A DNA stretch of 36,808 nt from Chrysophaeum taylorii. Taxonomy: Eukaryota > Sar > Pelagophyceae > Pelagomonadales > Pelagomonadaceae. Both the position numbers and the translations under genes were made by a program. The notes beneath the pieces are model-generated. The model did no database searches and was not told where the DNA came from. It worked only from the letters and a program-made list of their open reading frames with translations. Shown here one piece after another: positions 1,267 through 31,253 of the stretch (its first letter is position 1; every line of letters starts with the position of its first letter). The stretch lies in contig JAQMWT010000503.1 of assembly GCA_029834535.1 (NCBI GenBank), positions 1-36,808 of the forward strand. The letters are read 5' to 3'.

Positions 1267-1454
1267 ATCCTAACTAACTAAACTTCGGACCTCTCCCGGG
1301 CATGGGAGCCAGGCTGGGCCGGCAGTAGCCGGTCCAGGATCACAGAGCAAAAATCACACAGTTGGGGTCGAGGCGAGGGATGAAAGTGCGAGGATGGCGG
1401 ACCGCCACTGCGCGCGGTCTTGTGCGAGGTCGTGCCACAAGTTGAAGGGGATGT
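1267..1454 (-). mobile_element. SINE-like retroposon, 5'-truncated copy, (TTAG)n tail
   Basis: A 188-bp insertion flanked by a perfect 34-bp direct repeat (1233-1266 and 1455-1488), the target-site duplication. On the minus strand it ends in a TTAG-type tail (plus strand CTAACTAACTAA at its left edge), the 3' end of a retroposon. The roughly 60 bp next to the tail, including the plus-strand motif GCATGGGAGCCAGGC, recur in the copies at 5633-5996, 23899-24310, 26739-27090 and 27326-27692. This copy lacks the conserved head, so it is 5'-truncated, as expected of target-primed reverse transcription. No coding capacity is seen. Confidence 0.8.
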
Positions 1455-1606
1455 CAGCACGGTTCCAGACTATGCAGACGATGCTCAGGTCCAACGCTCA
1501 ATTACTCGACCACGCACACATTCTGTCACCTGACCTTGCGCTGCTACTGGCTCCTGTCTCATTCATAGCTGATGCACCCCATCCGATGGACCAGTCCTTA
1601 AGATAT

Positions 1607-2408
1607 GTCCCGCTCGCAGAAGCACCACCGCAGGACACACAGGTACATCATGAAGACACAGGTAAGCGCACCACGATCACGCGCACAAGCTCATTGCGCC
1701 TATCCGATCACGACGAGACGAAGCTACAGCACTGCTTGTTCCCTTCGCCTCTTGAAGACAAAGGCCGCCTTCCAGCCTCCCAGGCACCTGACCCGCTCCT
1801 GTCGCTGCAATCCGCATTAGCACAGACGATCTCGCCTCCCTGCACGACTGCAGATCGGGCACAAGCAAATGTCGGTATTCTCCTGAGTTGTGCGCACCCG
1901 CTGGAATCTTACCAGCACGGCTACCTCAGCCAGTCAGGTCACTGCACCACCTCGGTCTCCCCTGACACCAGGTCGACGTATCGCTCATTCGCGACCACCT
2001 CACGCCATCTAATGGACGACTATGATCTCGAGCATGAACTCATCGCAACGCTTGAGTCATACCCAAGAAGGAATCCTACTTTGGAGTCACCTCAGCCACT
2101 CCCACAGGAACTTTGGCCACCAGACGCCACCCATGTGCTCATGGTTTCTCCATTGGTTTCCTCCAAAGCTTTTGACTGCAGCAGAGACAAAATGCGAACT
2201 CCCCATGCGACTATACTCGCATTCTCGTTTGGGACAAAAGCATTTACTTCATGTCCGTTGTTTACGCTCATAGTACCGCGACACACGGCAACCAAGATAG
2301 AAGTGGACTGCGTTCCACCCTCATCTCTGAGCGCTACCCCCGACATGCTGCTCCCGGCACTACTAGCCAGTCCCATCACGTCTGATTCAGCTCCCATCGC
2401 TTTGTATG
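1607..2408 (+). repeat. Dispersed repeat R, copy 1
   Basis: About 0.8 kb that recurs in inverted orientation at 20087-20874, roughly 90% identical by eye with several small indels. Homology starts at GTCCCGCTC and ends at CTTTGTATG, with unrelated flanks outside. Open frames exist on both strands in both copies but are shifted relative to each other, so neither strand is clearly coding. It may be a fragment of a longer retroelement. Confidence 0.75.
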
Positions 2409-2581
2409 ACGTCATACGTCATATTCCGATTACAGCACAGACACCGCACAGGCTCCTATGCACTCGCGACGGCACGCTCACCGCCCCTCTCGGTTTAGAC
2501 TACGAACATTGCGCCATCCCCATGGTACACTCACAGTCAACTGAGATACACGCTCGCTTGTCGCACAGTACGACTCCCGAA

Positions 2582-2660
2582 CACCCTTTGGTTCAGGATA
2601 GGCAGAGACGACAGTGTTCACCCTTTGGTTCAGGATAGGCAGAACACTGTCGTCTCTGCC
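2582..2660. repeat. 25-bp direct repeat overlapping a perfect 19-bp inverted repeat
   Basis: A 25-bp unit containing CCCTTTGGTTCAGGATAGGC occurs at 2582-2606 and again at 2619-2643. Overlapping it, 2601-2619 and 2642-2660 are perfect reverse complements of 19 bp (starting GGCAGAGACGACAG), separated by 22 bp, and could form a strong hairpin in DNA or RNA. It lies at the end of the open frame 1394-2638. It could be the tip of a small foldback element or the result of a templated replication slip. Confidence 0.85.
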
Positions 2661-6276: not shown

Positions 6277-7887
6277 TTAGTTGCTTAAAGTTGACGCAAA
6301 CCGGAGTACATGCGAGTGCAGAGCGTGCACTATAGATGGATTCTCGGAAGCCAACTTCATTGTCTTTGTTCGCGAGTGAGGATTTCGCAGTGCAAAGTAG
6401 TTGATGTTCAGGGTTTGCCCAGGGAGGCTGTAAGTCTTTTTAAAGACCAAGGAACATTTAAACGACGCAGTCAGAGCGTAAGCTTTGTACTTGTACCCAG
6501 ACAGCGATTGTCCTTGAAACATACGTACGACGATATCTTCATATTGCGCTTTAGACTCGTACAGCTGAAGAACGTGGCGCTTGGCAACAGCGCCACCTAT
6601 CACAAAATATGCACGATTCCATGACGAGAATGTTGTAGGTGGCGTTGTTCCAGGGGATTTGCGCACGAGGCACCATCCTTTGGCAGTGTCGCATGAAATC
6701 CTCGAGCGCTCAAAGACAAGGCGGAGTGGCCGAGGTGAATTTTTCACCAACTCCAAACAACGAGCATACGGCAGTGTGGATGACTCTACTTCATTAATGG
6801 CAAGAAGTCGAGATCCAACAATAACACCCTTCTTTGATGCGGCCCCCCCTTCGATGACCATAGTCACAATTGTAAGTTCTCGACAACTTTGGCCATGTGC
6901 CTGGATGACATTGCTGCGCTCTTGGGGTTCATAAGTCCTAAGACCTACTACAGATCCAGATGTGCTTTCGAGGCGTCTTTCAAGCAGCATACCAAGCTTG
7001 ACTTCTGACTCGAAGAGTACCTCGTAGCGCTCCAGGTCAGACGAAGGAAGTTGAAGTCCCAGTTCCTCTTGCAGATCATCATCTAAATTGCTCGGAAGTA
7101 GCCAACCTGCCCCACCTTGCTTTTCTGTCACGTTATTTTCTTTTCTTTTGTTGCATGGAGGATCGTCCACAGACTCTCCCGATTTGCGACACGAGTCACT
7201 AGTTTTGATGGTCGAAGTACGTGCAGACAGAAACTCACTCATACGAGGCTGCAAGTCACTGAGTTTGTACAAGGTGGGATCATGTGTTCTTGGAGTAGAG
7301 GCAACACTAGCTGGTTTACTGAATCGTGGTTGTTCTGCGGCACAAACAGCTTTAATCATAGTTCCAACTTGCGGCTCTTGTGCGCAACTGGACGTAACAA
7401 CATGACTAATGCCTGGCTGCGAATGATGGCGCGATTTTTCAGCAGATGTTGGAGCAGTAATTGAGGTACCATCATACACTTCAACATTGTCTGCATCGAC
7501 AGACAATCCGGTGTTCATGTTGGCAGACACTCTCGCTAATGTCCTCTGCTGAGCAGCAATCGAACTAGCTTCATGGTATTGTTGATGGTACACGAGAACT
7601 GGAGCGAGCGCAGGATGTTTGAAAGCTGCTGGTTCCTGGGGTGCTACAATTGGTGTTTGTTGTTGCGGACCTTTCCATGTAAGTTTCTCTGATGGGACGT
7701 CGTAAGGGCCTGACACTCCACCTTCCGAAGCCATCAATAAAGCGTCCCGCACCAACGATCGTGCCTGAACTTGAGGGGGGGGCATCATGATCGGTTCACA
7801 AGCAGTCATTCCAACTTGTGAGATGCATGCTAATTGCTTTTCAATGTCCTTGTTAATATCCGTCACGCCGGTAAGGAGGTCTTCCAT
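6277..7887 (-). CDS. PDZ and PH domain protein (host gene)
   Basis: A 536-residue uninterrupted frame and the only convincing host gene here. Residues 1-255 are low-complexity, Ser/Thr/Pro/Gln-rich and probably disordered. Residues about 325-394 look like a PDZ domain: a strand-rich segment, then the motif GVIVGSRLLAINEVE and a helix ending in PRPLRLVFER. Residues about 402-532 look like a pleckstrin-homology domain: GWCLVRK, a Trp-containing second strand with AYFVIGG, and a C-terminal helix HALHSHVLRFAS. Such proteins are usually cytoplasmic adaptors that bind phosphoinositides and peptide C-termini; the exact partner is unknown. The ATG at 7887 is the first after an in-frame TGA 57 nt upstream (7942-7944), so the start is plausible unless an upstream exon is spliced on. 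No intron is needed. It is flanked by a SINE-like copy 280 bp past its stop and by a small hairpin element and LTRs upstream. Confidence 0.8.
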   Translation of the reverse strand: MEDLLTGVTDINKDIEKQLACISQVGMTACEPIMMPPPQVQARSLVRDALLMASEGGVSGPYDVPSEKLTWKGPQQQTPIVAPQEPAAFKHPALAPVLVYHQQYHEASSIAAQQRTLARVSANMNTGLSVDADNVEVYDGTSITAPTSAEKSRHHSQPGISHVVTSSCAQEPQVGTMIKAVCAAEQPRFSKPASVASTPRTHDPTLYKLSDLQPRMSEFLSARTSTIKTSDSCRKSGESVDDPPCNKRKENNVTEKQGGAGWLLPSNLDDDLQEELGLQLPSSDLERYEVLFESEVKLGMLLERRLESTSGSVVGLRTYEPQERSNVIQAHGQSCRELTIVTMVIEGGAASKKGVIVGSRLLAINEVESSTLPYARCLELVKNSPRPLRLVFERSRISCDTAKGWCLVRKSPGTTPPTTFSSWNRAYFVIGGAVAKRHVLQLYESKAQYEDIVVRMFQGQSLSGYKYKAYALTASFKCSLVFKKTYSLPGQTLNINYFALRNPHSRTKTMKLASENPSIVHALHSHVLRFASTLSN

Positions 7888-8063
7888 ACCGATATCAGCA
7901 AAGACAGTATGGGCACACAGAACTCCGCACGGACGACTGCTTCACCAACGCCTGTTCCACTTACTGTCAATCGCAATACCAGACCCGTTCTTTATCAAAG
8001 AAGTTGTCAAGGGGGCAGCAAAAAGAGCAATCCTTAACACCACGTAAGTGCCCCCGCTACGGC

Positions 8064-8657: not shown

Positions 8658-8676
8658 CGTGCGACTATATCGGTCG

Positions 8677-9016
8677 TGTGGCGGCAACTCCCGCCTCCTA
8701 AGGCTTACCCCTCTTCTAGGCCCCCCCTTATCAGGGGCACCCTACTCCGTCATGATGATGTCAGTTTTCTTTGTGACATCATCTTCCTTTTCCGTGACAT
8801 GTGTCACCCTGATTTCTGTGTTTCGATAATATCTTAATCATAAAGCAACAGCCGATCCTCAAGTTGTGAGGACCAGGCACGGAAGTTGCTTGTGGTTGTG
8901 TGGCGAGATAACGGCGATCCTCGTCCAGTGACTCCATCAAGGGCACGGACGCGAGCGGCGAGCCAGGATTCGAAGGCACGCCAGGTAGGCCAAAATTCTC
9001 CTTACGCCACGCCACA
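8677..9016 (+). mobile_element. 5' LTR of element A (family A)
   Basis: A 340-bp segment beginning TGTGGCGGCA and ending GCCACGCCACA directly before a primer-binding site. Its first roughly 40 bases resemble the family C LTR (GGCGGCAACTC, CTAAGGCTTACCC) but the rest is different. No second copy lies in the window because element A is cut off inside its reverse transcriptase. It starts 37 bp into the interior of the preceding family C element. Confidence 0.7.
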
Positions 9017-9067: not shown

Positions 9068-9549
9068 GTGCATCTTGCATTCGCTACACGGTCCGGACAA
9101 ACCGTGCGCGCCCTGATCAAGCGCGCCGACGAAGAGTTCCAGGAGGACCACTGCCGTGGGGAAGTTCCCCGGCCGGATACGTTAGTCGTCGGAAGTGACG
9201 ACGCGCGATTCGGTGCTAGCCGACGCGCAACCCGGGTGCCGCTGCCGCAGGCGAGCGGAGTGAGATCGCAACTCACTGAGGCATTGACTGCCGGGCAGAG
9301 ACGAATTCTGCCGCCCACCGGACTGATAGATCGGTCGGTGGGAAACACACGCGACGACGATTGCGCGTGTCGGGGACGAGTAGAAGTCCCAGAGTCGAAG
9401 GAGCACGAGAACGACGACGACTCACCCATTTTGGACCCGCTCTGATCTCGGCCGATTAGAACGAGCCAGAGCCGATATGGAAGACGATGATGCTGCCGAC
9501 GAGCAGGCGCGATACGACGAACCGCCAAGCCGTCAGGATGACGAGCGAG

Positions 9550-9589
<40 letters not shown>

Positions 9590-12500
9590 GCACGACACCG
9601 AAGTTGACAACGAGGAAGAAGAGCTAGACTACAACAACGGCGAACCGGCGGAGAGACCGTCGGGAGGACGACCGACAGCCCCGTCAACGCGTGCACGAAC
9701 CCCGGACGTAACGAGAATGAATGAGTTCTACGAGGCCCATTTACGTGCGTTGCGGGAAGAAAACGAACGTTCGCAGGAACGACTTTTACAACAAATAGCG
9801 GAAGAAAGCGATCGAAAGGTGCGGCTACAGCGGCAGGAGGCAGAAGAATTACGAGCGCAAGTGCGGAAGGCCAACGCTCGAGCAGATGACACCTCCAAGA
9901 TCAAGTAAATTCATTGACCCTAGAAAGGGACGGGTTGCGTACGCCGAGCCGATCGAGGCGAGCGAGCAGCCCGGGGTCCCGAGCCGAGGAAGAGCCGCCA
10001 ACTACACGATCACGCGCGAATGCTAGGAAGCCGCGCTTTGAAGACGACGATTACGAAGAAAAGGAGGAGACGCACGGCGACGGAAGAATCGACAATCATA
10101 AGTTTTTGATGGCTTTCACAGATCGGTTCGCCAGCGCGTTAGCCAAACACGATCGCAACAAGGATCGGCGATCGACCTCCGGATTAAAGACCGAAACTTT
10201 TAAACTGGTTCTTGATGGACGCGATCAGGATCAGTTCGATTTAGATGCGGGCGCGGTGATGAGTACGTTAGCCGATGACCATTTTAGCATGGAGAAGCTG
10301 CGGTACCTGCTACCCGCGAGCCTGCGCGACACCGTCGCACCGATTTTCCGGGAACATCTGAAGAAGTACGAAGACGTGTGTAAAGATCTTGATCACCCAG
10401 CGTCTTATTATTTACGACGGGATATCGACGATGAAGGAGTACGGTTCAGTGGTACGACGAATACGACGACTGAACGAGAAGTACTGCCTCCAGATTTTGA
10501 GATATTTCCGAGAGAGTTGCCCATTGCCGATGACGGCAGAGGAATTGCTATGAAAACTGCAAGGCACGACCCAAGCGACCGTTCCGAAACGATCTGGGGG
10601 ACGCCACGTGCATACTTATTGCATCAAATTTCAGAAAGGGGCCATGGCGTATTGCTCTGTGGCCAACCGAGATCTCAACGACGTGGAGATCATCTCTCAC
10701 TTGATACGTGGACTGGAGTCCAGCGAATTGAAATCCCGCGTGCGAACCATGCGCAGCGGGCACCCGACGACGTATAATACGCTTACGTCGACGTTTCCAT
10801 TGATTAAACGGCTCGAGAACGATTTCGCAACCGCCATGGCGGAGCGGAACAGCCGAAATCCACCGAACCCGTCGGGCGGGAAGCCGCAGAAGCCACCGTC
10901 TGGACGCGGAGGACGAGCGCTCGCCTCGGGACCGAAAGATAAAACGATGAAATACGAGGCATTGCGCCTAGAAGAGAATCCGAAAAAGTGGTTCGAGAGC
11001 ACACTCAAGGATTGTGGGTTCTTCTTAACGACCCACGAAAAGGATGAACACGGGAACCGGGTCATTTGCAATCGCGAGCCTGATGACTATTATGTGGCGA
11101 TGTGTAAGTACATCGAAGACGGTAAGAAGCCTATCTCTCGGGGACGATGGGAGAGCCGACAGAAGAAAGATAATCATTCGCGTGACGACGGCAGTTCCAA
11201 TGCCACCCTCGGTTCGAGCGCCGCTCACGATATTCAGAGCAGACTCAACGACATGGGCACGCAGCTGACCACGGTTATGGATTCCGTGAAGCACTTGAAA
11301 GATGGACACGGCCGATCGTCTTCGACACGACCGGGCCGTCGAGATAGCCGGAGCCCCCGACGCCGCGACAAGAGCCGTAGCAGCTCGCGCCCGCGCCGAC
11401 GGAAAGAAAGCCGGAGCTCTAGTAGACATTCACGCCGCCGCCGGCGACGAAGATCTTGCGATCGAAATTCGGACGATGGACGTTACCGAGAAGACTCGGG
11501 ACATTCGTCTGCAACGTTCACGTTTACGACCCCTTGCGGTCAACAGCTACCATTAGGAGTGATGGTGTACCCGAACACGGACACCCGCAACGACGACGCA
11601 GCCTATGCCCGCGTCGCGGCCGCATTCGACGATCTTGCTCGCCCGCCGACGGACGAGCCACCCAACGACGTGCTGACCGATCGTCGGTCTTTGGCACAGA
11701 TTTATGAGGCGATGTCGAGCGATGAAGTCGAAGAATCGAGGGATGACCTCGAAGCTCCACGATACTGGGAAGACGATTCAGACTCGGAAGATGAAGAAGC
11801 TACACCTTGTGAACCAGTGTCCGCGATTATGTTACTTGACGAGTCGTCCACGGACGACGCACCGTTCGTTTTTGACGAGGAAGCCCTCGACGCTATCGGT
11901 TTATCTTTGGACCTTCCAGGGACGACCTTTGGCGACCGAACTGGCTGTGAGCCAGAAAAGGATTTCTGCAGTGATGGCTCGTGTGATCATTCGACGGACG
12001 GGACGATGACCATAGCGAGTGATGCAGACGACGATCTTACGATAGAGTTGACGTCGGGGACGACGCCATCTTTTCCTGCGGACCCCCCCGAAACGGTTTC
12101 GGTTACGACGGATCGAGCCACGGACACGCCGCCCGAAGAAAAGGCGAGATTTAAGAAGAATATTCGCAGCGTTCTCGAAGGGGACGAAGACGAGCCAACG
12201 TGGAACTTGCAGGTTTGGTGGACGAGAACTCGGAACTTCTTGATGAAGAAGCCACCATAACCACCGCCCAGCTACGGACTCGAAGCCGCTGCCGACACGG
12301 AACCGATCGCCGATGATGAGGATGATCAACCGATTACGAATGAATCTACGGATGCATTCTGGAATGACGAAATGGATGAGTTATGGGAGAGGTCCTTTGC
12401 TTCCAAGAACCACGAAGATCAGGATCCCCTACCAGCACTGATTCCCTCCGAGATCGTCACGGAGGAAGAGCGGAAGCCGCCAGATAAAGAGGCTGCCGCG

Positions 12501-12608: not shown

Positions 12609-13900
12609 TTGACGCCGCGAGACGGCAAGACGATCCAAGATGATTTGGTTACCCTGAGTTGTTTGGATACGGGTACTCGTACGTTTATGGCCTGTCACAT
12701 CTACAGGCATCGTGACGGACCGAAATTCTCGACGACCATCGGTGTCGATGGAATGGCAGATGTTTCTTGTATTTGCCGAGAAATGGTCAGAAAGTTGGCC
12801 AAAGATAAGTTGATTTTCGATGAAGGCGAACTTCCGATTAAGCGCAAGCTGTACGGATCGGGGTTGAATACGACGACGATCTTTCGTGGGATCGCGATTC
12901 GGGTCGCTCTCGCCGACAACATCGCCGCCCCCATTGTCGCTATTGTGGCCGATACGAACTATCTGTTCCTGTTGGGAGGGCGCGATATACGAGTTTTAGG
13001 AGCCGTCGTGGACTAACCCCCACGATCGGATCTGTTTTTATCGAACCCAAGTCGTCTACGGGCGCAAGAAGATTAAAGTCAATGATGAACGAGTCGATGC
13101 ACCCATCGTGACCTTTCGATCTATTTACGACCGAGACACGACAACCGTACCGATTTACAATCATCAACACGATGCCTTCCGGAAGAGTCTCGACCTAGTC
13201 GAGACTCGAGTTTACGCGCGTTTGAGCACGATTAAAGATCTCCGCTGCCCGCCGCCGGAACGAACGGTAGCCTTGGCTACGCGGGGACATGCTACGACCA
13301 AATTCTCCCTAGCTCCGGGAGAAGCCGCGCGAGAAGTGGTGGCTTACGCTGCGCGCACGCTTCAAATCGAGCCCGGCCGAACTTACAATCTACCGGTTGT
13401 TTTGTCGAAACCTATGGAAATGGGACAGGTTTTCGTCGCTACATTTGCTGAAAACGAGCAGTTGGGAGTTGTCGAAGGAATGTGTTCTTCTTGCGAAGAG
13501 TACGACCGGTCCGCTGCTCGGGTTGCGGTTACTGCCGCGGAAGAAGTGCCGACGGTCGTCACTCAAGGCGAAGTCCTCGCGATTGGCGATATCGTTCGGT
13601 ACGAATATGAGTTGAACGTCTCTACGATCAACGAACTTACGAAAGAAGGTGAAGAAGGATACGACAAGGGGGACCTTTCTTTCACCGTTTCCGTCGCTAG
13701 TCATTTGACGCGTTGCGACGCGTCTCCCCCGCCGATGTTGCTGAGCACGGCGCAGAAGGACGCTACGACCGCTATTGCGGACAAGTCCTCCCTCAAACGA
13801 CCCGAAGGCGACGACGATTTCGCTCGAAGGTCGGAAGAAGACGAAAAGAAGTGCCGCGAGATCACCGAAGCGGAGATCCGCCGCCTATATGAAAAGGTTC
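12609..13900 (+). pseudogene. Aspartic protease and beta-rich linker of element A
   Basis: In the gag frame after a TGA, 12609-13016 resembles a retropepsin: a D-T/S-G-like strand region (IGVDGMADVS), a middle flap region and LLGGRDIRVLG near the end, the usual Leu-Gly-Asp ending. A TAA at 13014-13016 ends the frame, and the protein continues in the next frame from about 13018 (CFYRTQVVYGRKKIKVND), so a one-base indel is present. 13290-13620 encodes beta-strand-rich sequence (LAPGEAAREVV, PVVLSKPMEMGQVFVA, VTQGEVLAIGDIV) like the barrel-like linker many Ty3/gypsy elements have between protease and RT. The protease would process the polyprotein. The catalytic triplet is not a clean DTG/DSG, so activity of this copy is doubtful. 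Confidence 0.62.
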
Positions 13901-14836
13901 AATGGCTTCCAATCACTTATCGCAAGGTGGTGATGCTGTTCACTAGTGCCGGAGGCAGTACTTTAGGTCTCCAACGAGCCAACGAAATGTGTGGGACGTC
14001 GTTTCGAGCCGTGCTAGCACTCGATACGTCGGACACCGCCAACCAGATCCACCACAAGAACTTTCGGAATATTCCTGGGGTGCAGCACACACTGTGTGGT
14101 CGCTATGTTACAACCTTACGGTTGATCGAATCTTATTTACCCTACGCAGAATGGTCGTCGTCGATGTGTGTCGCGTCGCCACCCTGCGTACACTCCGCTC
14201 TGTGCAACTTGACTTCCAGAGATGTTGGGAAGGGAGTCACCGCTACCCACTGGACGATGAAATTATGCAAGATGGCTGGTTTCTTCATGTGGTTGATAGA
14301 GCAGGAGGCCTCGATTATTTCTTATGTTGCACGTTTGCACCCTTACGTGTACGTCGTCAATTTTTACGACATAACGCCCAGTTTGATGAGCTGCCGCGTG
14401 CGATTGTTGGTTTCAAGCCATCCGCTCCATTTGCGCGCAGTTCCAAAGACTTGCAAGAATATGCAGCAAGAGTTCGCCGCCGCGCTTGGCTACGCCGACG
14501 AACAATTTAGGATCATCACGAGCCGCGACAGACGCAGCTTGCACCGTTACGCGTGTCCCGCTTCGTGTAGGACCGCACCGTTCCGATTACAGATCTCTGA
14601 ATCTGAAAATGACTTCGGAGTTGCTCACAATGCCCCTTGATTTCGATTGGGCCGGCTTCTCCAGGACGACCTCGTTGAACCACTTGGCGTCCGTCGTGCC
14701 ACCAGACACGATGACCTTATTAGTTCTCGATCTGCACAACTCTGTGACTAAGGATTTTCACTTGAGCGGCGAAGCTTTGCCATCCGCGTTGAGTCCTGCA
14801 GACCGACCGTTTGATTATTATTTGCAAATTGATTAA
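13900..14836 (+). pseudogene. Retrotransposon-borne cytosine-5 DNA methyltransferase
   Basis: About 300 residues in the same frame as the preceding linker. Motif I (AdoMet binding) is VVMLFTSAGGSTLGLQRAN at 13933-13978; an acidic motif II follows (AVLALDTSD); motif IV holds the catalytic Cys as VASPPCVHSAL with Pro-Pro-Cys at 14179-14187. After WLIEQE the frame runs to VYVVNFYDITPSLMSCRVR, which resembles the stretch ending in motif VIII (QRRRR-type). Motif VI (Glu-Asn-Val) is not visible; about 25 residues seem missing. The C-terminus continues in another frame (14540-14836) with motif IX/X-like features: SELLTMPLDFDW and LASVVPPD, the latter resembling the GN-S/A-VPP of motif X. The family transfers methyl from AdoMet to cytosine C5. 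A diverged copy of the C-terminal part lies at 19803-20010. Because of the frame break and missing motif VI this copy is probably inactive. A host gene is unlikely, since it sits between protease and RT in one polyprotein. Confidence 0.78.
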
Positions 14837-15154: not shown

Positions 15155-15510
15155 GTGCCATGTAAGGATGCGCCGCGCGATGCTGAGGGTGCACCGCAAC
15201 CGCAAACTCATGAGCATGTCGAGGACAATGAGGCAATGGAAGTTAAAATTCCTACGAAGGGAGAAGTTGACAAGGTTGTTCAGGAGCTGGGAATTCCTGA
15301 CAATCCGCACTTAGATGACGAGGCGAAACTGATGCTCCGTCACTGTGTGCAATATTCGTGGGCCTTTTTCGACACGATTATGAGACCTATGGAGTCGCCT
15401 CCTGTGTCTCTACGATTCAAAGACGCGAATCCGCGACCGATCAAGATGACGCCCTACCGATTGACGCCTGCGAAGCTCGATTGTCTCCGCAAGCAGATCA
15501 GCCAGTGGCG
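15155..15510 (+). pseudogene. Reverse transcriptase N-terminal fragment of element A
   Basis: The frame carries VDKVVQELGIPDNPHLDDEA, then WAFFDTIMRPMESPPVSLRF and PIKMTPYRLTPAKLDCLRKQ, the segment just before the RT fingers in Ty3/gypsy. The same protein segment recurs with about 75% identity by eye at 15760-16050 in element B. After ISQW (about 15507) the homology ends and the frame runs on through unrelated sequence to 15964. No catalytic RT residues remain in this fragment. Confidence 0.78.
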
Positions 15511-15704: not shown

Positions 15705-16727
15705 ATGGAAAACGCACCAGGGGACAAAGTCGGCGCGCCGCTACCGCAACAGCCCAACCATATGAAAGGGAACGAGGCCATGATCGTCAAGAACCCCACG
15801 AAGGAAGAAGTGGACAAGGTAGTCGACGAGCTAGGCATCCCGAACAACTCGCACTTGGACGAGGATGCCAAACTCATGTTGGCGCACTGCGTTCGATACT
15901 CTTGGGCCTTCTTCGATCCCAACATGAGGCCCGTGGACTCTCGACCGGTGTCCCTCCGATTTAAAGACGCGGACCCAAAACCCATCAAGATGTCGCCGTA
16001 CCGCCTTACTCCAGCCAAGATCGAATGTCTTCGCCAGCAGATTTCCGAATGGTGCAGAGACGGAGTCATAAGACCCGCCGACTCCCCCTGGGGGTTCCCG
16101 GTCTTGATGCTTCCGAAGAAAGGTGCGGAGCTCGGAACATCTAACGCCTTCCGCGCGGCCGTCGACTTACGTCAGCTCAACGACCAGTTGGTTGACGACA
16201 GCTGGCCGAACGTGCCGCAAGAGGACGCCCTAGCGTTCCTGGCCGGCCGAAGGTTCCGGACCTCGATCGACATTCGGTGGGGGTATCACAACCTTCAACT
16301 AGACCCTCAGGCACAGGACGCCGTAACGATGGTCAGTCCGCTCGGAGCCCTCAGCTTTCTCCGACTGCCCCTGGGAGTGAAGACCGCAGGCGCCCTCTTC
16401 TGCAAGCAGATGACAGCCGACCTCGCTAAATGGATGTACCAAGATCTGGTCAGCTTCATCGACGACATCATAATGGGAACGGACAACATCTACGGTCATT
16501 TGCAGTGCCTGGCCGAAGTCCTCTCTCACCTGGCCTCCAAAGGATACAGCGGCCGGACAGCCAGGTTCCACTTGCTCCAAGACGACATCGAGTTCCTTGG
16601 TCATATCTCGACCCCCGATGGGTTGAAGCCAAACCCCAAAACGTTGGAAGCGCTGCGGAAGATGCCGATTCCCGGGACGCTGCCGAAACCTCCCCGAAGA
16701 CTCAGATCCGCTCTTTCATCGGGATGA
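15705..16727 (+). pseudogene. Reverse transcriptase domain of element B
   Basis: The RT is recognisable from WAFFDPNMRPVDSRPVSLRF through CRDGVIRPADSPWGFPVLML, RAAVDLRQLNDQ, FRTSIDIRWGYHNLQLD (first catalytic Asp), TMVSPLGALSFLRLPLGVK and SFIDDIIMGT (FIDD, the Y/F-x-DD catalytic pair, about 16455-16480) to FLGHISTPDGLKPNPKT in the connection region. It copies element RNA into cDNA. The frame shifts near 16690 into that of RNase H, so RT and RNase H are not in one frame here. The upstream pre-RT linker is split into another frame near 15700. Confidence 0.9.
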
Positions 16728-17280
16728 GCAACTACTGCCGGAGATACAGCAAGGACTACTCGAAGATTGCGGAACCCTTGCGACGACTGACGCTAAAAGA
16801 AGTGCCGTTCAAATGGGCCCCGGAGTGCCAGGAAGCGTGGGACACCATCATCGAAGCGCTGGCGGATTCCCGCGGAGTGTATCATCCGGATTGCGACCTT
16901 CCATTCCACACTAGGACGGATGCCTCCAAATACGGTCTCGGAGCGTGTCTCTTCCAAATCGTCGAAGTCCAGGACGACAATGATCACACGTGTCGCGAAG
17001 AACGGGTGATCGAGTACTGGAGCCGAGCGGTGCCAAAAGAGAAGCGCAATTACGAGCCGCGCCGTCTAGAGCTCCTGGGAGTGATCCTATCCCTCGAACA
17101 CTTCCGCCCGTTCATCGAAGGCCATCGGACCGTTCTCGAAACCGACCATCGGAATCTGACGTTCCTCCGTAACACGACCCACTCCACCGGGCAGCTCGCC
17201 CGATGGGCAATGCGACTGGCCAATTTCGACCCCGAACTCGGTTATAAGCCCGGCAAGTCCCCGGGGATGAGTATCCCAGA
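16690..17280 (+). pseudogene. RNase H domain of element B
   Basis: Read in the frame of 16430-17416: QIRSFIGMSNYCRRYSKDYS begins the tether, followed by HTRTDASKYGLGACLFQ (catalytic Asp of a Ty3/gypsy RNase H, as in the usual TDAS), YWSRAVPKEKRNYEPRRLEL (catalytic Glu region) and LETDHRNLTFLRN (catalytic Asp). It degrades the RNA strand of the RNA:DNA hybrid. The frame changes again near 17278, just before the LLSRNP motif that usually ends RNase H, so the integrase lies in a third frame. This makes the copy non-functional unless the indels are sequencing errors. Confidence 0.85.
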
Positions 17281-19374
17281 CTGCTCTCGAGGAATCCGAT
17301 CGACCACGTCATCGAGACGGACGAGTTCGGAGAGCCGCTCAATCACGCGTACCTGGTCGTGCAAGAGCTGCCTCTCCCCGAAGGCGAAGCCGGGCGTCAC
17401 GTCATCCTCAACTTGATGCAGACCGATATTCCCGAAGACCTCGAAGACCCTCCAGACGATCCGACGGGACTCGCCGCGTCGCACGCCACGCAACAACGCG
17501 AGAAAGTCGTCTTTCGCGCACGCAAGCCACCGTTGCGGACCGACGTCGGACTACAAAAGGAATTCATCGACAAGATCCCTGACAACATTTCACTGGATGA
17601 GATCGCCGAAGCCCAGAAGAATGATCCTCTATGCGACAGTATCCGCGCTGGGATGAATCAAAGCGATTCTCGTCGCCGATTCGGAGCCAACGTCCGCTAC
17701 GACGTATGGAAGGGGGTCTTGTACCGGTACGACATCGACCTACGCCCCGTGATCGTCGCGCCCGCGTCCTTGCGAGAGAGGATCATGCGTATCCACCACA
17801 GCTCGCCGCTGGGAGGACATCTCGGGCGCGATAGCACCGTCAACGCGATCGCCGAAAGGTTCTGGTGGCCTCGTATGTCGCACCAGGTCGGAGTCTTCGT
17901 CAACAGCTGCCTGACTTGCCAAAAATCACGAACCCCGGAGCCGAAGCGCAAAGGGATGCTGCAGCAGCCGATATACGACGGCGATTGCGCCGTTCTATGC
18001 ATGGACCTTTTCGGACCCCTGCCGAGTACCGGCAAGTCCACGTACATCCTCGTAATGTTCGACCCGTTCTCGCACTATTTGGTCTTAGACGTCATAAACA
18101 CCAAGCATGCCGACGCCATCTTGGACTCCTTCGCGAGAAACATACTCCTTCAGGGATTCCTCCCGCGCATGATCCTCACCGATAATGGTCGCGAGTTCGT
18201 CAACCGGCTGCTACGGGCCTTCCTCGTTGAGTTCGACGTCCGGTACAGGACAACGATACCATACCACGCCCAAGCGAACCCCGCAGAGCGAGTCAATCGG
18301 TTCCTCAAGGCGTTCCTCCGGGCCTGCCTCGAGGGTCGCAGCATCACCGACTGGCCGGCCTTCGTCCGGTACGTGTCGTTTTGCTACAACCGAAAGTTCA
18401 TCCCCGGCACGCAAATCTCCCCATTCATGTTGCGCCTGAACCGGCAGCCGATGTTGCCCACGGACTACACCTTGTTGGTTCAGCCTGACCCCGTTCTGCC
18501 GCGACCCCGATCCGACGCGTTGCTGGAAGTCAAGCAGAACTTCCAGTATTACTCGAAAATAGTCGCTGAGGCACACGATCATGCCAAAAAGACGCAGAAA
18601 CTCGCTTACGACGCCGAGCACGTTGATGTCGAATACAATGTCAATTCGCACGTGTTACTGTACATTCCACAGTCCCTCAACAAGTTGCGACCGGAGTGGC
18701 GCGGCCCCTTCCTCATCACCGAGCGTCTGTCACCCGTTTCGTACAAGATCCGATCGGTTTACGGAGCCGCCGAAGAGCGAATCGTGCCAGTCCAACAGAT
18801 CACCCCAATGTCGATGCCTCCCACGCTCGATGCCACGATCCGTCGTCAGAGCCCCGGATTCCGCGACGAGTACGAACGCGGCAAGTTCGTCATCTTCCGC
18901 ATCCCGTCGGCCCGAGACCCCGATTGGCGCCAGGAGCTCGACGTCGCCGAGGTTTTCGAGGATCATGATGATGTACAGGACCGAGTCGCCCTCCACTTTT
19001 ACTCCGATCTGGGCCCGCGCGACGACCCATCGTATTTCGACCCGACCTCACCAGGTCGCACGCTGAGCCCGGAATTCAAGGCGGCTCTCGGTCGCAGCTT
19101 CACCCGCACCGATAAATTAAGACCTCAGTGCACCCCTTGCGTTACCGACTTCGCCCCAGACGAGATCGACGTCCTGGTTCCCCGGTTCAAGCTCCAGGGG
19201 AAATCAGTTCCTCCTCCGATCGTCCAGCGCGCCAAAGATATTCTCGCGCATCGCGCGCGCCAAGAACAAGAACAACACCAAGCTCAACAACGCGGTCATC
19301 ACACGCGCGCTCAAGTCCCGTCCACAGACGGTCCGCGCCGAAGCTCTCGTCAGTCGCACCACCGCCGTCGCTGA
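17281..19374 (+). CDS. Integrase of element B with conserved C-terminal extension
   Basis: An open frame from LLSRNPIDHV onward, in frame through to TGA at 19372-19374. It has an H-H-C-C zinc-binding domain (HHSSPLGGHLG ... CLTCQK, about 17790-17930), then the D-D-35-E core: MDLFGPLP (Asp, about 18003), LTDNGREFV (Asp, about 18180) and YHAQANPAERVNR (Glu, about 18283). The GPF/SH3-like region follows (RPEWRGPFLITERLSPVSYK). The last 180 residues form an extension with GKFVIFRIP, VAEVFEDHDDVQDRVALHFY and TPCVTDFAPDEIDVLVP, strongly conserved in the diverged element at 25448-26035; no classical chromodomain is visible. Integrase inserts the cDNA. It has no start codon of its own and is the end of a polyprotein whose upstream parts are in other frames. 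Confidence 0.88.
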   Translation: MLSRNPIDHVIETDEFGEPLNHAYLVVQELPLPEGEAGRHVILNLMQTDIPEDLEDPPDDPTGLAASHATQQREKVVFRARKPPLRTDVGLQKEFIDKIPDNISLDEIAEAQKNDPLCDSIRAGMNQSDSRRRFGANVRYDVWKGVLYRYDIDLRPVIVAPASLRERIMRIHHSSPLGGHLGRDSTVNAIAERFWWPRMSHQVGVFVNSCLTCQKSRTPEPKRKGMLQQPIYDGDCAVLCMDLFGPLPSTGKSTYILVMFDPFSHYLVLDVINTKHADAILDSFARNILLQGFLPRMILTDNGREFVNRLLRAFLVEFDVRYRTTIPYHAQANPAERVNRFLKAFLRACLEGRSITDWPAFVRYVSFCYNRKFIPGTQISPFMLRLNRQPMLPTDYTLLVQPDPVLPRPRSDALLEVKQNFQYYSKIVAEAHDHAKKTQKLAYDAEHVDVEYNVNSHVLLYIPQSLNKLRPEWRGPFLITERLSPVSYKIRSVYGAAEERIVPVQQITPMSMPPTLDATIRRQSPGFRDEYERGKFVIFRIPSARDPDWRQELDVAEVFEDHDDVQDRVALHFYSDLGPRDDPSYFDPTSPGRTLSPEFKAALGRSFTRTDKLRPQCTPCVTDFAPDEIDVLVPRFKLQGKSVPPPIVQRAKDILAHRARQEQEQHQAQQRGHHTRAQVPSTDGPRRSSRQSHHRRR

Positions 19375-19403: not shown

Positions 19404-19715
19404 TGTGGCGGTAACCCGTACAACGCCATTCTTACCCCTAGTTCTATCGAGTTCTCTACCCCACTTCCTGTTTGCTGGACTCTACGTCAACCCCTGACGC
19501 ACGTATTTGTAACGCCGCCCGGCGTCTACTCCTTTCAACTCGACTAATCTCAACCATAAATCATTTCACGAGTCTTCGGATAGAAGCTCCTGGGCAGTTT
19601 GGAGGTTGATCGACAAGAAGGAAGCGCGCCTCAGCCCGCTCGGCACCCTCGAGACGTCGAGGGCACAGTCGAAGCAGGGTAAGAAGTCAGCGCGCATAAT
19701 CCTTTCCTGCCGCAG
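19404..19715 (+). mobile_element. LTR, family B (3' LTR of element B and 5' LTR of remnant B')
   Basis: A 312-bp LTR starting TGTGGCGGTAACCC and ending CCTGCCGCA. It is preceded by a purine tract, as a 3' LTR should be, but also followed by a primer-binding site at 19718 and an element leader, as a 5' LTR should be. The same LTR in minus orientation lies at 23681-24431, interrupted there by a SINE-like insert. Differences between the two are scattered substitutions and small indels. Confidence 0.85.
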
Positions 19716-19717
19716 GT

Positions 19718-19735
19718 GGTGGGGGGTATGAGATC
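19718..19735 (+). other. Primer-binding site of remnant element B'
   Basis: TGGTGGGGGGTATGAGAT begins two bases after the LTR. It differs from the site at 23661-23678 (minus) by two bases (GGGGGG for GGAGGA) and would pair less well with the tRNA. The following leader, to about 19802, matches the leader of the minus-strand gag element (CGGCGAGATCTCCGAACCTG). Confidence 0.72.
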
Positions 19736-19802
19736 TTGCTACATCGGCGAGATCTCCGAACCTGCAACCGCAAGCCAAGCGCTGGGAACAGCACAAGCAC
19801 CG

Positions 19803-20010
19803 CGGAACGGAGTGCGAGCAGGACCCGCGCCTTTGGACACCAAAGCGCTCAAACTGTAGATGCTCGCGGAGGCTCTCACGATGCCGCGCGATCTCGCATG
19901 GGGTAAACTCACAGTCACGGGCCGAATGAAGCATCTTGCAGCCGTGATACCCCCGTCCGCCAAGGCGTACACAGCCCTCGACGCCCACAACGCGTTGCCG
20001 CCCACGCTCC
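19803..20010 (+). pseudogene. Second, diverged DNA methyltransferase C-terminal fragment
   Basis: Translated in the frame of 19860, this gives a passage with EALTMPRDLAWGKL, MKHLAAVIPPSAK and LDAHNALPP. It aligns residue by residue with the end of the methyltransferase at 14540-14790 (ELLTMPLDFDW, LNHLASVVPPDT, LDLHNSV), including the VPP/IPP of motif X. An in-frame TAG lies at 19857-19859 within the aligned region. It starts right where the leader of an element with a family B LTR is cut (CACCGC junction near 19802), so gag, protease and most of the enzyme were removed by an internal deletion. It shows that the enzyme was also present in an element behind a family B LTR, and diverged there. 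Alone it cannot be active. Confidence 0.7.
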
Positions 20011-20086
20011 GTAATATCGGAATCGCGCGCCCCGAACGTAGTCACACCAACCGACGAACCTTCCGAAACATACATCATCGAGCGGG

Positions 20087-20874
20087 CATACAAAGCGATG
20101 GGAGCTGAATCAGACGTGATGGGACTGGCTAGTAGTGCCGGGAGCAGCATGTCGGGGGTAGCGCTCAGAGATGAGGGCGGAACGCAGTCCACATCTACCT
20201 TTGTCGCCGTGTGTCGCGGTACTATGGGCGTAAACAAATGACATGAGGTAAATGCTTGTGTCCTAAATGAGAATGCGGTCATAGTCGCATGGGAAGGATG
20301 CATTTTGTCTCTGCTGCAGTCAAAAAAGGAAACCAAGGGAGAAACCACGAGCACGTGGGTGGCGTCTTGTGGCCAAAGTTCCTGTGGGAGTGGTTGAGGT
20401 GACTCCAAAGTAGGATTCCTTCGTGGGTATGACTCAAGCGTTGCGATGAGTTCATGCTCGAGATCATAGTCGTCCATTAGATGACTTGAGGTGGTCACGA
20501 ATGAGCGATACGTCGACCTGGTGCCAGGGGAGACCGAGGTGGTGCAGTGACCTGACTGGCTGAGGTAGCCGTGCTGGTAAGATCCAGGGGGTGCGCATAA
20601 CTCTGCATAATGCTGACATTGGCTTGTGCCTGATCTGCAGTCGTGCAGGGAGGCGAGATCGTCAGTGCTAATACGGATTGCAGCGACAGGGAAGGGTCGG
20701 GTGCCTGGGAGGCTGAAAGGCGGCCTTTGTCTTCCAGAGGCGATGGGACAAGCAAAGCTGTAGCTTCGTCTCGTCATGATCGGATAGGCGCAATGAACTT
20801 GTGCGCGTGATCGGGGTGCGCTTGCCTGTGTCTTCATGATGTACCTTTGTGTCCTGTGGTGGCAGGAGCGGGAC
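20087..20874 (-). repeat. Dispersed repeat R, copy 2 (inverted)
   Basis: Reverse complement of 1607-2408, roughly 90% identical by eye. On its right it abuts the end of the minus-strand gag frame; on its left it follows about 75 bp after the methyltransferase remnant. Its minus-strand frame 19566-20837 is open but also runs through the LTR and leader, which marks it as incidental. Confidence 0.75.
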
Positions 20875-23585
20875 TCCTAGCAAGGTGAGCTTTGCCTGTG
20901 CGATAGCGATATCCGCTTGCATTTTGTCCAGCTCGTCCTCAGGGACCACGTCGAGAGCCGTCGTGGAGTCGAACGTCGGGTCAGCCGGGGCGGCCATCGC
21001 GCACGGTTTCGGCGGCGGTTCGCTCGATGGTGTCGTCGGGGGCACGGAGGACGGCCGCAAGGCTCCGAAAAACTCGCCGTCTGTGCTGCTGGCCGATCCG
21101 AGGAGCGTGGCGTCGGTGATGGAACATCCGGATGCGCCGTCTCTCGATTGAGGCCCAAAGAAAGACCCCGCGTAATCCATCGACGATTGCGTACTCGAGC
21201 TCGAGGAGTTTCGAGCTGCGAGCACGCGCTCAACGATCGCTTCAATCTGGTTGACCTGCACGGCGCCAGCATTCGACGACGCGGTGGCGTTCGCATTCGC
21301 CGGCGGTCGTCGGTCGCCGTTGGCTCGTGCGGCTTTTTGTTCTTTCTTCCAGGCTCCGTAAGGGATGGGTTCTTGTCCCTGCCGTCGTCGTGCTTTCATC
21401 GCCTGCTTATAAGCGTTCGGGCGAGGGCAGAGGGGGGAACCATCAGCGTTTCGCGAATGGTCGACCTTGAAATTTCCGCAGTCGCACATCTTCCGCATCC
21501 AGGCGTCCTTCTCTCGCATGCTGGGTCTCGGGTCCGCGTCCACCTCGGGCTCTTCCTGCAGCGTCGCGTATGCGCCGGGTTTCCTGGGGTCGCGCGGGTC
21601 GCGCGGCGGTGGATTGGTGGGCTTGCCGGGGTGCGCCTTCTGCCACGCGTCGAACTGGATCTCATGCCGGAGGATCCGACTTTGAACTTCAGCGAAGGTG
21701 TTGTACTGGTTGGGCTGATCACATCGCGCCATATGAATCTTTGCTGCAGCTTCGTCGATGCCAGTCTTTCGATCATTTGGTGAATCATATCGATGCTATC
21801 CATCGATGTTCCCGTCAGCGCTGTATAGGCCGTGGCCTCCTCCTGCAGCGACTTGAGGTAGGTCAGGACCCAAGATTTCCCCTCCTTCTTCGGCGTGGCG
21901 GCTTGCGTGATGTTCCGGACTTTGTGGAACGCTTCCTCGGGTCGAGGTGCGGGCCGGCAGGCTTGGCGGAGCTGCTGGAGGATCCGCTTGACGTGGGAAA
22001 GGTTCAGGTCGCGAAGCTGCCGGATCTGTTCCTTGTACGGCGTCTTGCTGTCGGCGTGGAATCGCAGATAAAACGACTCGGGGTGCCCGAGCGACACATT
22101 GCCTCTGCCGCCATTCGCCCTTCCTCCAACGTCGGTAGCACGGCCTGGCGCACGTCGTCCGTGAGGCCGAACGAAAGTGAGTTGATGGAATAGCGCTCCT
22201 TCGACAACTCCCCGACGATGAGGGCGGCCTCGTGATCGAACTGCCGCTGGTCCTTGCCCTCGATGTCCAGCTAGCTTGATCATCTTCAACTTGAGGCGTC
22301 GGTGCCTCGGGCCGGCCGCGTCCTCGTATCCTCGGGAAGCCAGGGCGGTGGATGGCCCTTGACCCGTTGCGGCCCTTACCAGCGCGGCGACGATCTTGTC
22401 GGCCTCCGTGGGCTCCTTCTCTTCCTCGTGGGCTCGCGTGCGATTCGCCTGCTCCGTGCGTCGGACCGGCGGTTCGCTGCTCGGCGGCTCGGAGTCGGAT
22501 TCTTCGCGATCCGATTCGCGGGGCGATTCGGGTCGCGGTGGTTGCGCTCGCTGCTCTCGACGCGTCTTTGGCGAGTGCAACTCCTCCCGGAGATATTGGA
22601 TCTGGGTCGCTGCGGCTTCGCGAGCGTGCTCCGCGTCCTCGCGAGCGCGTCGGGGCTCGTCCTGAAGGGCTTCCTTCTCCTCGCGGGTGACGGTTTCGAG
22701 TCGAGCCGTCGCCGCCTCCTCGATCTGCGCCGCGATTTCTTGGGTAATCAAGCTGCGCTCATCCTCGCGCTCTTGCGCCTGCTTATGTATCTCTCGGGCA
22801 AACCGATCGCGCTCCTCCTCGCGCTCTCGCGCTTGCTTTCGACTCTCCTCATCTTGTATTCGGATCCGCTCTTGCGCTGCTGCAGCTGGTCTTGGAGCAA
22901 CGATACCATCTCCGGCAGCTCGCGAACTGCTCGGGAGTTTTCGGCGGCGCGCTCGTCGGCTGGTTCGGTTCGAGTCGTAGTCGTGGCGCTTGGCTGCTCG
23001 CCCGTCGACTCTTCCTCTTTTCTCGCTTCGGCTTCTGCCGGTCGTTCGGTTTTTCGGTCTCGCTCGTGTTCGGCGGCCGGCGCCGGCGCGTGTGGCTGCG
23101 TCGGCGGAGTCTCTTTTTCTTCCGCCCCTTCTCTCCCGGCGTCGGTGGGGACGTCTTCGTATCGTATAATGCGTCGCGTCGGCATTGTTGCTGACGCTGT
23201 CTCTTTCAGTGCCTCTTTTTTTTTGGGGCTCGGCCCACTTTCTTGGACTCCGCTCACTCTTTTCCGGTGATCGGCTATTTTGTTGTCCTCGGGTTCGTCG
23301 GGCGAGTCGATGCTCGTCTCCGGATTGCGAGCAAAGATACGTTTCACACGTATGCCGCGCTCGACGCTCCGCTCAGGACCACGTCGGAAAGCTTATTTGC
23401 CACTCAGTTCCCAAACTGGTGGTGATGCCGAGAGATATGTCTCGGCCGGGTACCCCCTTCTTGTTGTTGTGCGTGTCTTCACGCGGGCGTACGATCTCGT
23501 CGACGACCTTACGGAGAACGTCACTCGTGCTAGTCTTCTCTCGAGCGCCTTGAAGAGCTTCGGGTTTGATCAATCCCCGCGGCAA
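20875..23585 (-). pseudogene. Gag of a minus-strand Ty3/gypsy element, frame-broken
   Basis: Frames 23585-23373, 23347-22748, 22751-21396 and 21732-20668 on the minus strand read as one Gag with shifts. It begins with an N-terminal segment (GLIKPEALQ) comparable to ALIKRADEE of element A, then a very charged Glu/Arg/Ala coiled coil (about 23000-22480), a capsid-like region (FYLRFHADSKTPYKEQIRQL, 22100-22000; ATAYTALTGTSMDSIDMIHQ, about 21800), and the Cys/His cluster CDCGNFKVDHSRNADGSPLC at about 21425-21490 followed by YGAWKKEQKA. The last two match the Gag of element A in order and spacing. The Arg/Ser tract of element A is not present; a Ser-rich stretch takes its place (about 21190). The frame then runs into repeat R, so protease and pol are lost. 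Confidence 0.75.
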
Positions 23586-30600: not shown

Positions 30601-30702
30601 AATATCGCCGATGGATTTACCAAACCCTTTGGAGCTCCACTCTTCAGCAGATTTCGCACGTTACTCGGCTTACAACAACCCATAGCTCAACAAGATGGTT
30701 AA
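27693..30702 (+). pseudogene. Ty1/copia pol (integrase tail, RT, RNase H), left arm copy
   Basis: A post-integrase Pro-rich linker (27900-28740) is followed by RT: FKLALPMVNSKPIDTRLVLR, a region with KHKARLVLRGF, YHVDVPNAFFQAPIDSHVYV (catalytic Asp), LYGLRQSPALWN and LSVDDVVIT (about 29525; Ser replaces the usual Tyr of YVDD). RNase H follows with FVDADNAPSYEQDRKSTTGY, TSTHESELIALNM and HVSGTHNIADGFTKPF, ending with TAA at 30700-30702. Three lesions are seen relative to the right arm: TAA at 28104-28106 (GAA in the other copy), a 4-base insertion near 28735, and TGA at 29674-29676 (TCA in the other copy). Gag, protease and the integrase core are missing. The copy is therefore dead as a unit. 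Confidence 0.9.
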
Positions 30703-30776
30703 TCATTACCCTCCATTATGTCCGAAATGACTTTAAACTAACCCTGCTATGCAAAGGGATACTGGCTTGCTAAAAT

Positions 30777-31253
30777 GTGAAATGCTACAAAAGATGTGAT
30801 GTGGAGATTCCTCTCATGATGAATCCCACTAAAAACAAAGATGCTGCGAGCCGACGCCACTCTACCATGAACCGTGGTCGCGGTGGTGGTATACTGTCAC
30901 TGTCTCCACCTTTTAATGCTCTAACTCCAAGCGTTGCACCGACTAGTTCCCCTAATCGGAAACATCAAACCTATTTGTCGGTGGCGCAAGGACATCAATC
31001 TACGCCCGTGACGCCCAAGGCGCCCAAGGCAACTGCCCAACAACAGTCTAAATCGCAAGCAGCAAAGTCTGAGTATTTCCTGCTCAAACATTGTAAATTT
31101 GACGTATTAGCGATGATGTCCGGGAACGTTACTGCTCTTGGTTCATCGCCACCCAACTTTCTTATTCCGCAACACAAGGACCCCCAGTGCTGGCTTAAGT
31201 CATTGCAGCAGCTGCTTACGGAAGCACAAGTGCAGGCCAGTAAGTTCACCTAG
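30777..31253 (+). CDS. Unidentified 158-residue frame downstream of copia pol
   Basis: Open from ATG at 30777 to TAG at 31251-31253. Composition is Ser/Pro/Lys/Gln-rich in the middle (TPVTPKAPKATAQQQSKSQ) with a more ordered end (FLLKHCKFDVLAMMSGNVTA, CWLKSLQQLLTEAQVQASK). I recognise no domain. The equivalent region in the right arm (33470-33900) is nearly identical but has several one-base deletions that break the frame. It may be the start of another element's gag or a truncated host exon: the frame ends at an AGTAAGTTC motif that resembles a splice donor but is repeated downstream. Low confidence that it is a real gene. Confidence 0.3.
   Translation: MKCYKRCDVEIPLMMNPTKNKDAASRRHSTMNRGRGGGILSLSPPFNALTPSVAPTSSPNRKHQTYLSVAQGHQSTPVTPKAPKATAQQQSKSQAAKSEYFLLKHCKFDVLAMMSGNVTALGSSPPNFLIPQHKDPQCWLKSLQQLLTEAQVQASKFT

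Follow-up and report, generated by a model that had tools for sequence, protein, structure and literature searches.

In our study, a divergent but complete C5-cytosine methyltransferase (MTase) was found in Ty3/gypsy retrotransposons of Chrysophaeum taylorii, and we are nearly certain that it is a built-in part of Gag-Pol in the clade formed by families A and D, located between a protease-like segment and the reverse transcriptase (RT) and kept under purifying selection. The genome searched comprised 70.8 Mb in 697 contigs. The window, that is, the whole stretch of 36,808 nucleotides analysed (contig JAQMWT010000503.1), contained one copy of the family A element (Table 1). The window copy is a decayed, dead member of the large Ty3/gypsy family A, since its MTase is split over two frames, its protease-like segment lies in a third frame with a stop, and its RT is a mosaic.

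Table 1. Positions of the family A copy and of neighbouring element parts in the window.
Feature	Position	Strand	Basis
Family A LTR (~338 bp), element 5' end	8673..9010	+	Aligns with the L021 terminal repeat (44-382) and both L024 ends
Gag-like frames and acidic region, broken in the window copy	9384..12260	+	Open frames; DNA-level alignment to the L021 frame
Protease-like segment, frame 3, ends in stop	12654..13019	+	86.9% identical to the L021 segment
Linker, MTase frame	13027..13884	+	88% identity with the L021 linker
MTase domain, motifs I to VIII, frame 1	13888..14505	+	95% identical to L021 domain residues 1-206
Catalytic Pro-Pro-Cys, motif IV	14179..14187	+	Sequence; Cys kept in the family A and A+D alignments
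MTase C-terminal part, motifs IX and X, frame 2	14501..14815	+	Matches the L021 domain, ending at residue 316
Family A RT start, cut off	15266..15508	+	95% identical to L021 RT residues 1-81
RT of a second, related Ty3 element (mosaic)	15810..16709	+	81% identical to the L021 RT; RVT_1 E=3.1e-11
Integrase region	17248..19374	+	Integrase_H2C2 E=5.4e-20, rve E=1.1e-11
Fragment (motifs IX/X, LAAVIPP) of a further MTase lineage	19812..20033	+	41% identical to the family A domain, tblastn E=2e-12

The MTase domain of the window copy spanned 13888-14815 overall, and its reading frame was broken near 14500-14510. A preliminary description of this DNA had reported a motif I, a Pro-Pro-Cys, a motif VIII-like stretch and motifs IX/X with a VPP signature, all in frame with the linker after the protease. 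The Pro-Pro-Cys was confirmed in the window sequence, and the motif VIII-like stretch was identified as SCRVRLL (14389-14409). Motif I was located at 13939-13971, but it reads FTSAGG, a decayed form of the FSGAGG present in 20 of the 23 aligned family A copies; its first glycine, conserved in all 23 copies, was lost. The acid of motif II was found within 14011-14034 and motif VI (WLIEQE) within 14290-14313. Motifs IX (14588-14635) and X (14684-14704), with the VPP, were present but in a frame different from that of motifs I to VIII. The open frame 13000-14640 (+) carried the linker directly into the MTase, as described, whereas the protease-like segment was in the third frame. We take this segment to be a putative protease from its position and its D-G-M-A / LLGGRDIRVLGAIVD pattern; Pfam and PDB searches of it for an aspartic protease gave no match, and a Pfam scan of the gag-like region gave none either. 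The adjoining RT had been assigned to the same element, which holds for the truncated RT start but not for the second RT that follows it from 15810.

With the window domain as the query, the family A MTase was found at least 151 times in the genome (150 of 1022 candidates scored), this and the other copy counts being lower-bound matches that include fragments and seemingly also haplotype pairs (such as C10/C297 and C25/C521). Many of the matches were stop-free, and two were located in open frames of 3067 and 3063 codons. The native frame of 3067 codons ran from gag to integrase with the MTase inside, the Pfam domains being found in pieces. The order PR-MTase-RT (PR, protease-like segment) on the same strand was observed in 24 of the 27 family A loci retrieved together with their flanking DNA (L002-L028), and the remaining three held two of the three parts (no listed RT in L002 and L007, no listed PR in L004). 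The MTase of family A is therefore not a chance insertion, and its placement between the protease-like segment and the RT, first noted in the window copy, is regular in the family. Among the matches listed, an MTase was found upstream on the same strand for at least 88 of 130 RT matches, with a start-to-start spacing of 1350-1399 bp in 76 of the 88; the other 42 RT places, without an upstream MTase among the matches listed, are an upper bound for domain-less copies. Locus L021 showed the Ty3/gypsy order of Pfam domains (RVT_1, 2.7e-13; RT_RNaseH, 1.8e-26; rve, 5.5e-12), and L024, the one copy tested, held both LTRs in one locus (302 bp aligned, 96.0% identical). The spread of family A is recent; the best 16 matches listed, one of which was the query, were 98-100% identical over 315-316 of 316 residues. 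Elsewhere in the genome, contig C696 contained eight RVT_1 matches that were among the best of the genome, and may be an organelle genome with many group II introns.

The second Ty3 family, D, was found through the genome matches to the Pfam profile PF00145 and contained at least 138 matches (129 of 891 candidates scored). L076 of this family showed a PR-like segment, linker, MTase, RT, RNase H and integrase regions, and its identity with L021 was 42% in the MTase, 37% in the PR-like segment and about 60% in the RT. The pairwise identity of the A and D MTases in the multiple alignments was 35-41%. In a D-type copy (L099, C335:26250-27150), the PR-like segment and the linker were present, and the distance from the linker mark to RVT_1 was 833 nt against 1955 nt in L076. 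This distance is too short for the domain, so L099 seems to be devoid of the MTase. This copy, together with the RT places that had no listed upstream MTase, suggests that the MTase may be dispensable.

The window copy alone stayed below the cut-off with PF00145 (E=0.11), whereas all 23 aligned family A copies (subfamily A1) matched the profile, with a best E of 1.5e-6. Single family A copies reached PF00145 through motif I only. Three family D proteins matched with E of 1.3e-9 to 1.5e-8, in two stretches each, at both profile ends. The A1 alignment was made without L023 (reported stop) and L069 (partial), and the A4 alignment without L058, L050 and L034, stops being reported in L058 and L050. 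The A+D profile was aligned by hhalign with a profile of ten C5-MTases (the Dnmt2-like gene of the host and nine proteins from phages, archaeal viruses, plasmids or databases) with a probability of 98.7 and a score of 117.4 over 253-257 columns. Motifs IX/X, the PPC and the arginines of motif VIII stood in register. In the control, 100 column shuffles gave a maximum score of 23.5 and a probability of 1.9, and the reversed profile gave 0.3. Against the PDB at E<=10, the A+D profile found only two matches, both cytosine-specific MTases, with E of 0.078 and 0.99, not significant alone.

All 12 chosen canonical residues (F/G/G/G of motif I, the acid of motif II, P and C of PPC, E of motif VI, RxR of motif VIII and VP of motif X) were shared by A and D (p=1.3e-5), whose domains are 40% identical. 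The catalytic Cys was present in 23 of 23 family A rows and in 19 of 19 A+D rows, and L066 alone among the 23 contained PLC. The PC of motif IV, the Glu of motif VI and the Arg of motif VIII were all present, in the order I-IV-VI-VIII-IX-X. Families A and D contained EQE, (S/C)xRxR and (A/G)SxVPP instead of the canonical ENV, QxRxR and GNxVPP, which are the usual but not the strictly defining residues of C5-MTases. Two AlphaFold2 models of the domain were poor (mean pLDDT 35 and 39), and the fold search gave 1499 matches at E<=10 with mixed Rossmann folds, none of them at E<=0.001; because of the low confidence and the uninformative fold search, these structures were set aside. The changes in motifs VI, VIII and X, the low-confidence models and the elements that seemingly manage without the domain would also suit an inactive or weakly active enzyme that is retained as a scaffold binding nucleic acid or the cofactor, e.g., for packaging or for spacing in the polyprotein. 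Such a scaffold is unlikely, since families that are 40% identical have both kept the catalytic Cys, the Glu of motif VI and the RxR of motif VIII, and a phage C5-MTase of the reference set (L092) is likewise without the motif X Asn.

Purifying selection acts on the MTase in families A and D, as the comparison of copies proposed in the preliminary description bears out: the median dN/dS of the domain was 0.16-0.23 in three subfamilies, in alignments of stop-free or single-frame copies only, which may favour low values. L064, whose middle was out of frame, was excluded from the A/D subfamily set. The median omega of the MTase was 0.216 in A1 (19 copies), 0.215 in A2 (3 pairs) and 0.228 in D1 (15 pairs). 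In another selection of 19 family A copies the median dN/dS was 0.164 in the MTase, 0.107 in the RT, 0.267 in the PR and 0.338 in the linker, and in the 14 common family A copies it was 0.162, 0.112, 0.255 and 0.363, respectively. The ratios between subfamilies were 0.067 (A1 and A2) and 0.061 (D1 and D2), which are rough values because the synonymous sites are near saturation (dS near 1.8). The young subfamily D2 had a pN/pS of 0.725 on a dS of 0.013, with too few changes to judge. In family B, a Ty1/copia family, the dN/dS of the MTase was 0.144 (6 pairs).

The MTase of family B was found at least 156 times (150 of 660 candidates scored). In the copy on contig C96 (L045, L080), which was seen end to end, a PR-like segment was followed by the MTase (PF00145, 4.2e-8), rve (0.0031, below the cut-off) and RVT_2 (4e-39). 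The domain contained the motifs LPC, ENV and ANAV, and a long insertion was present between motifs VIII and X in L045, L080 and L081 of C96 and in L040. Against the C5-MTase profile, family B reached a score of 91.5. A chance resemblance, a one-off insertion or contamination could be argued from the window copy alone, with its weak profile match and its broken frame, but it is refuted for families A, B and D by the at least 151, 156 and 138 matches, respectively, on many contigs, the regular MTase-RT spacing, the purifying selection and the shuffle controls, and we give it hardly any credence.

The A1 alignment was searched against 5.8 billion proteins, and none of the 7997 scored had E<=0.01; the A+D alignment gave one match (E=0.031), annotated as DNA (cytosine-5)-methyltransferase 1. 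The protein search for relatives of family B found none elsewhere, and the viral contigs, searched with A+D and with family B, gave no confirmed relatives. As no close relative was found, the A/D domain is probably an orphan and the separate capture suggested in the preliminary description is plausible, within these searches and the comparison with the ten C5-MTases of the reference profile. The comparison of the A+D profile with the family B profile gave a probability of 0.2, with no common origin found. The placement in an MTase tree, also foreseen there, was obtained in part: in a tree of 17 rows, A/D formed one group and B another, both supported, whereas the deep forks were mostly open (8 of 14 inner branches). 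The tree left the A/D and B MTases apart, by weak forks (78/89). To judge from their sequences, the A/D and B MTases are likely distinct captures. The two share their slot, the MTase being located after the protease-like segment.

Other stretches of the window were also compared with family B. The stretch 1643-2116, which matched family B (E=1e-6, 25%), was considered as a third MTase family and was dropped, because a long open relative (C603, L075) was without MTase motifs. The frames at 1274-2638 (+) and 19566-20876 (-) were Ser/Thr/Pro/His-rich repeats, belonging to a family of at least 154 matches, one of them in a frame of 2354 codons; this repeat family had weak similarity to family B and no MTase motifs were seen in it. 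Two copia-like stretches, 27857-31218 (+) and 33476-36808 (-), were inverted and 95-99% complementary, the first with an RVT_2 match (E=3.2e-41), and a search of both for the family B MTase gave no match.

The genome search with PF00145 gave 57 matches at E<1e-3, which by eye comparison were one Dnmt2-like gene, one Dnmt5-like gene and 55 matches at family B places; 64 weaker matches mostly resembled the A or D motif matches. The Dnmt2-like gene (L029) matched the DNMT2 chain 1g55 (E 3.9e-39). The PDB match of the Dnmt5-like gene (L030) was 7r76 (E 3e-143), which is labelled DNA repair protein Rad8 and which we take to be the Cryptococcus Dnmt5, the basis of the name given to L030. No DNMT1- or DNMT3-like gene was seen in this six-frame search, which intron-split genes could escape, and one SRA-domain match was found in the genome. 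The Dnmt2-like and Dnmt5-like genes and the SRA-domain match make a host 5mC machinery plausible. In the window, the only host gene is perhaps an open frame of 554 codons at 6280-7941 (-), whose PDZ match is weak and stays below the cut-off (E 2.7e-4).

The elements themselves might serve as the host's de novo DNA methyltransferase and also mark host DNA, the marks being maintained by Dnmt5. This role is decidedly unlikely, as split genes could have escaped the search, the weaker PF00145 matches were only partly assigned, and the Dnmt5 identity rests on one PDB match with the label Rad8. The composition of the matches at E<1e-3, limited to the Dnmt2-like gene, the Dnmt5-like gene and family B, would agree with it. 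So would the behaviour of Cryptococcus DNMT5, which according to PMC9246332 maintains methylation and does not start it. A broader reading, in which different orphan C5-MTases were captured into the same post-protease slot by two unrelated LTR superfamilies (Ty3 in A and D, Ty1/copia in B) that together are the sole de novo methylation source of a host with a maintenance-type Dnmt5, is rather unlikely as a whole. Should Dnmt5 be the only maintenance enzyme of the host, the elements would be candidates for supplying methylation de novo, the origin of which is an open question in Dnmt5-only organisms.

It had been suggested in the preliminary description that an element methylating its own DNA could hide from the host. 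The footprint tested for this, an excess of CpG transitions, was absent between family A copies, where CG/CHH was 1.02 and CHG/CHH was 0.91 (351 pairs, 27 loci). The CG/CHH ratio was 1.04 in D1, 0.66 in D2 and 1.10 in B, and in the small A2 set (15 pairs) the ratios were 1.35 at CG and 1.60 at CHG. The observed/expected CpG was 1.14 in the window and 1.31 in L021. As transitions at CG were no commoner than at CHH, lasting CG methylation with deamination was not seen in family A, a result that would still agree with methylation during the cDNA stage, with efficient repair or with RNA as the substrate. The lack of CpG decay would fit an enzyme that makes m5C in RNA, with the element RNA or the tRNA primer as its target, much as Dnmt2 methylates tRNA. 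In the PDB, the best matches of the family A profile by itself were tRNA MTase/DNMT2 chains, with E of 0.33-0.34, not significant, followed by unrelated GGA1 chains, and RNA methylation was raised for SymbioLINE-Dnmt by the authors of PMC5890265. However, on adding family D the best matches were other cytosine-specific MTases, and the tree, with its open deep forks, did not join A/D with the host Dnmt2-like gene; we regard an RNA enzyme as improbable.

Methylation of the element's own cDNA appears to be the likeliest role of the domain, judging from the sequence data, and cDNA methylation is proposed for SymbioDIRS-Dnmt3 in PMC5890265. The best explanation overall, a built-in Ty3 C5-MTase that methylates fresh cDNA, has in our opinion an even chance of being right. 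The mechanism of release, packaging and cDNA methylation before integration is tentative, and we put it at a little under even. The MTase would be made together with the RT and the integrase in one polyprotein, cut out by the element protease and packaged alongside these two enzymes. It would methylate cytosines of the fresh double-stranded cDNA before integration, and new copies would arrive already marked. The mark, which a Dnmt5-type maintenance enzyme of the host could copy, would let the cDNA pass as self or dampen the new copy, which would then be tolerated. That unrelated superfamilies use the same post-protease slot suggests a shared requirement during the cDNA stage.

What a DNMT does for a retrotransposon is an open question in the few known lineages. 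One compact genome here contains at least two Ty3 families and one copia family with MTases, some copies being near-identical and open; the MTase-bearing and the seemingly MTase-less variants are natural pairs with and without the domain, and three enzymes can be compared. Retrotransposon DNMTs are already known from dinoflagellate LINE/DIRS elements and Klebsormidium Gypsy elements (PMC5890265). The principle is thus known, and in the open literature searched no report was found of families A, B or D or of a double capture in one genome. PMC12344493 lists, for streptophytes and dinoflagellates, LTR Copia and DIRS elements with DNMT3, citing the 2018 paper, whose passages on these elements speak of Gypsy (PMC5890265); given this mention, a copia carrier is not claimed here as the first. 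By description, the Copia element of PMC12344493 is of the DNMT3 type, whereas family B is a copia family with an orphan domain. The Symbiodinium Copia elements are described in PMC5890265 as without a DNMT, and the passages of PMC5348765 on oomycete retrotransposons name no methyltransferase.

The eukaryotic orphan DNMTs of PMC12344493 resemble, by description, the domains reported here, being divergent C5-MTases outside DNMT1/2/3/5/6, some of them in transposons. Ectocarpus Sola1-1, with ParB-like and DNA MTase domains, is likewise a transposon with a DNA methyltransferase, but it is a DNA transposon and its enzyme is predicted to be 4mC or 6mA, not C5 (PMC12477816). SymbioLINE-Dnmt and SymbioDIRS-Dnmt3 of Symbiodinium are also multi-copy DNMTs borne by retrotransposons, which are LINE and DIRS elements, in contrast to the LTR Ty3 or Ty1 elements of our study; according to the same source, SymbioDIRS-Dnmt3 methylated CG de novo in yeast whereas the tested SymbioLINE-Dnmt did not (PMC5890265). 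KnitGypsy-Dnmt3 of Klebsormidium nitens is alike in being a Gypsy LTR element with a C5 DNMT in Pol under purifying selection (Ka/Ks < 0.2). Compared by description only, its domain is related to DNMT3 and its repeats are described as DIRS-like (PMC5890265), whereas families A and D contain an orphan domain placed between the protease-like segment and the RT, and the one family A copy tested has ordinary terminal LTRs.
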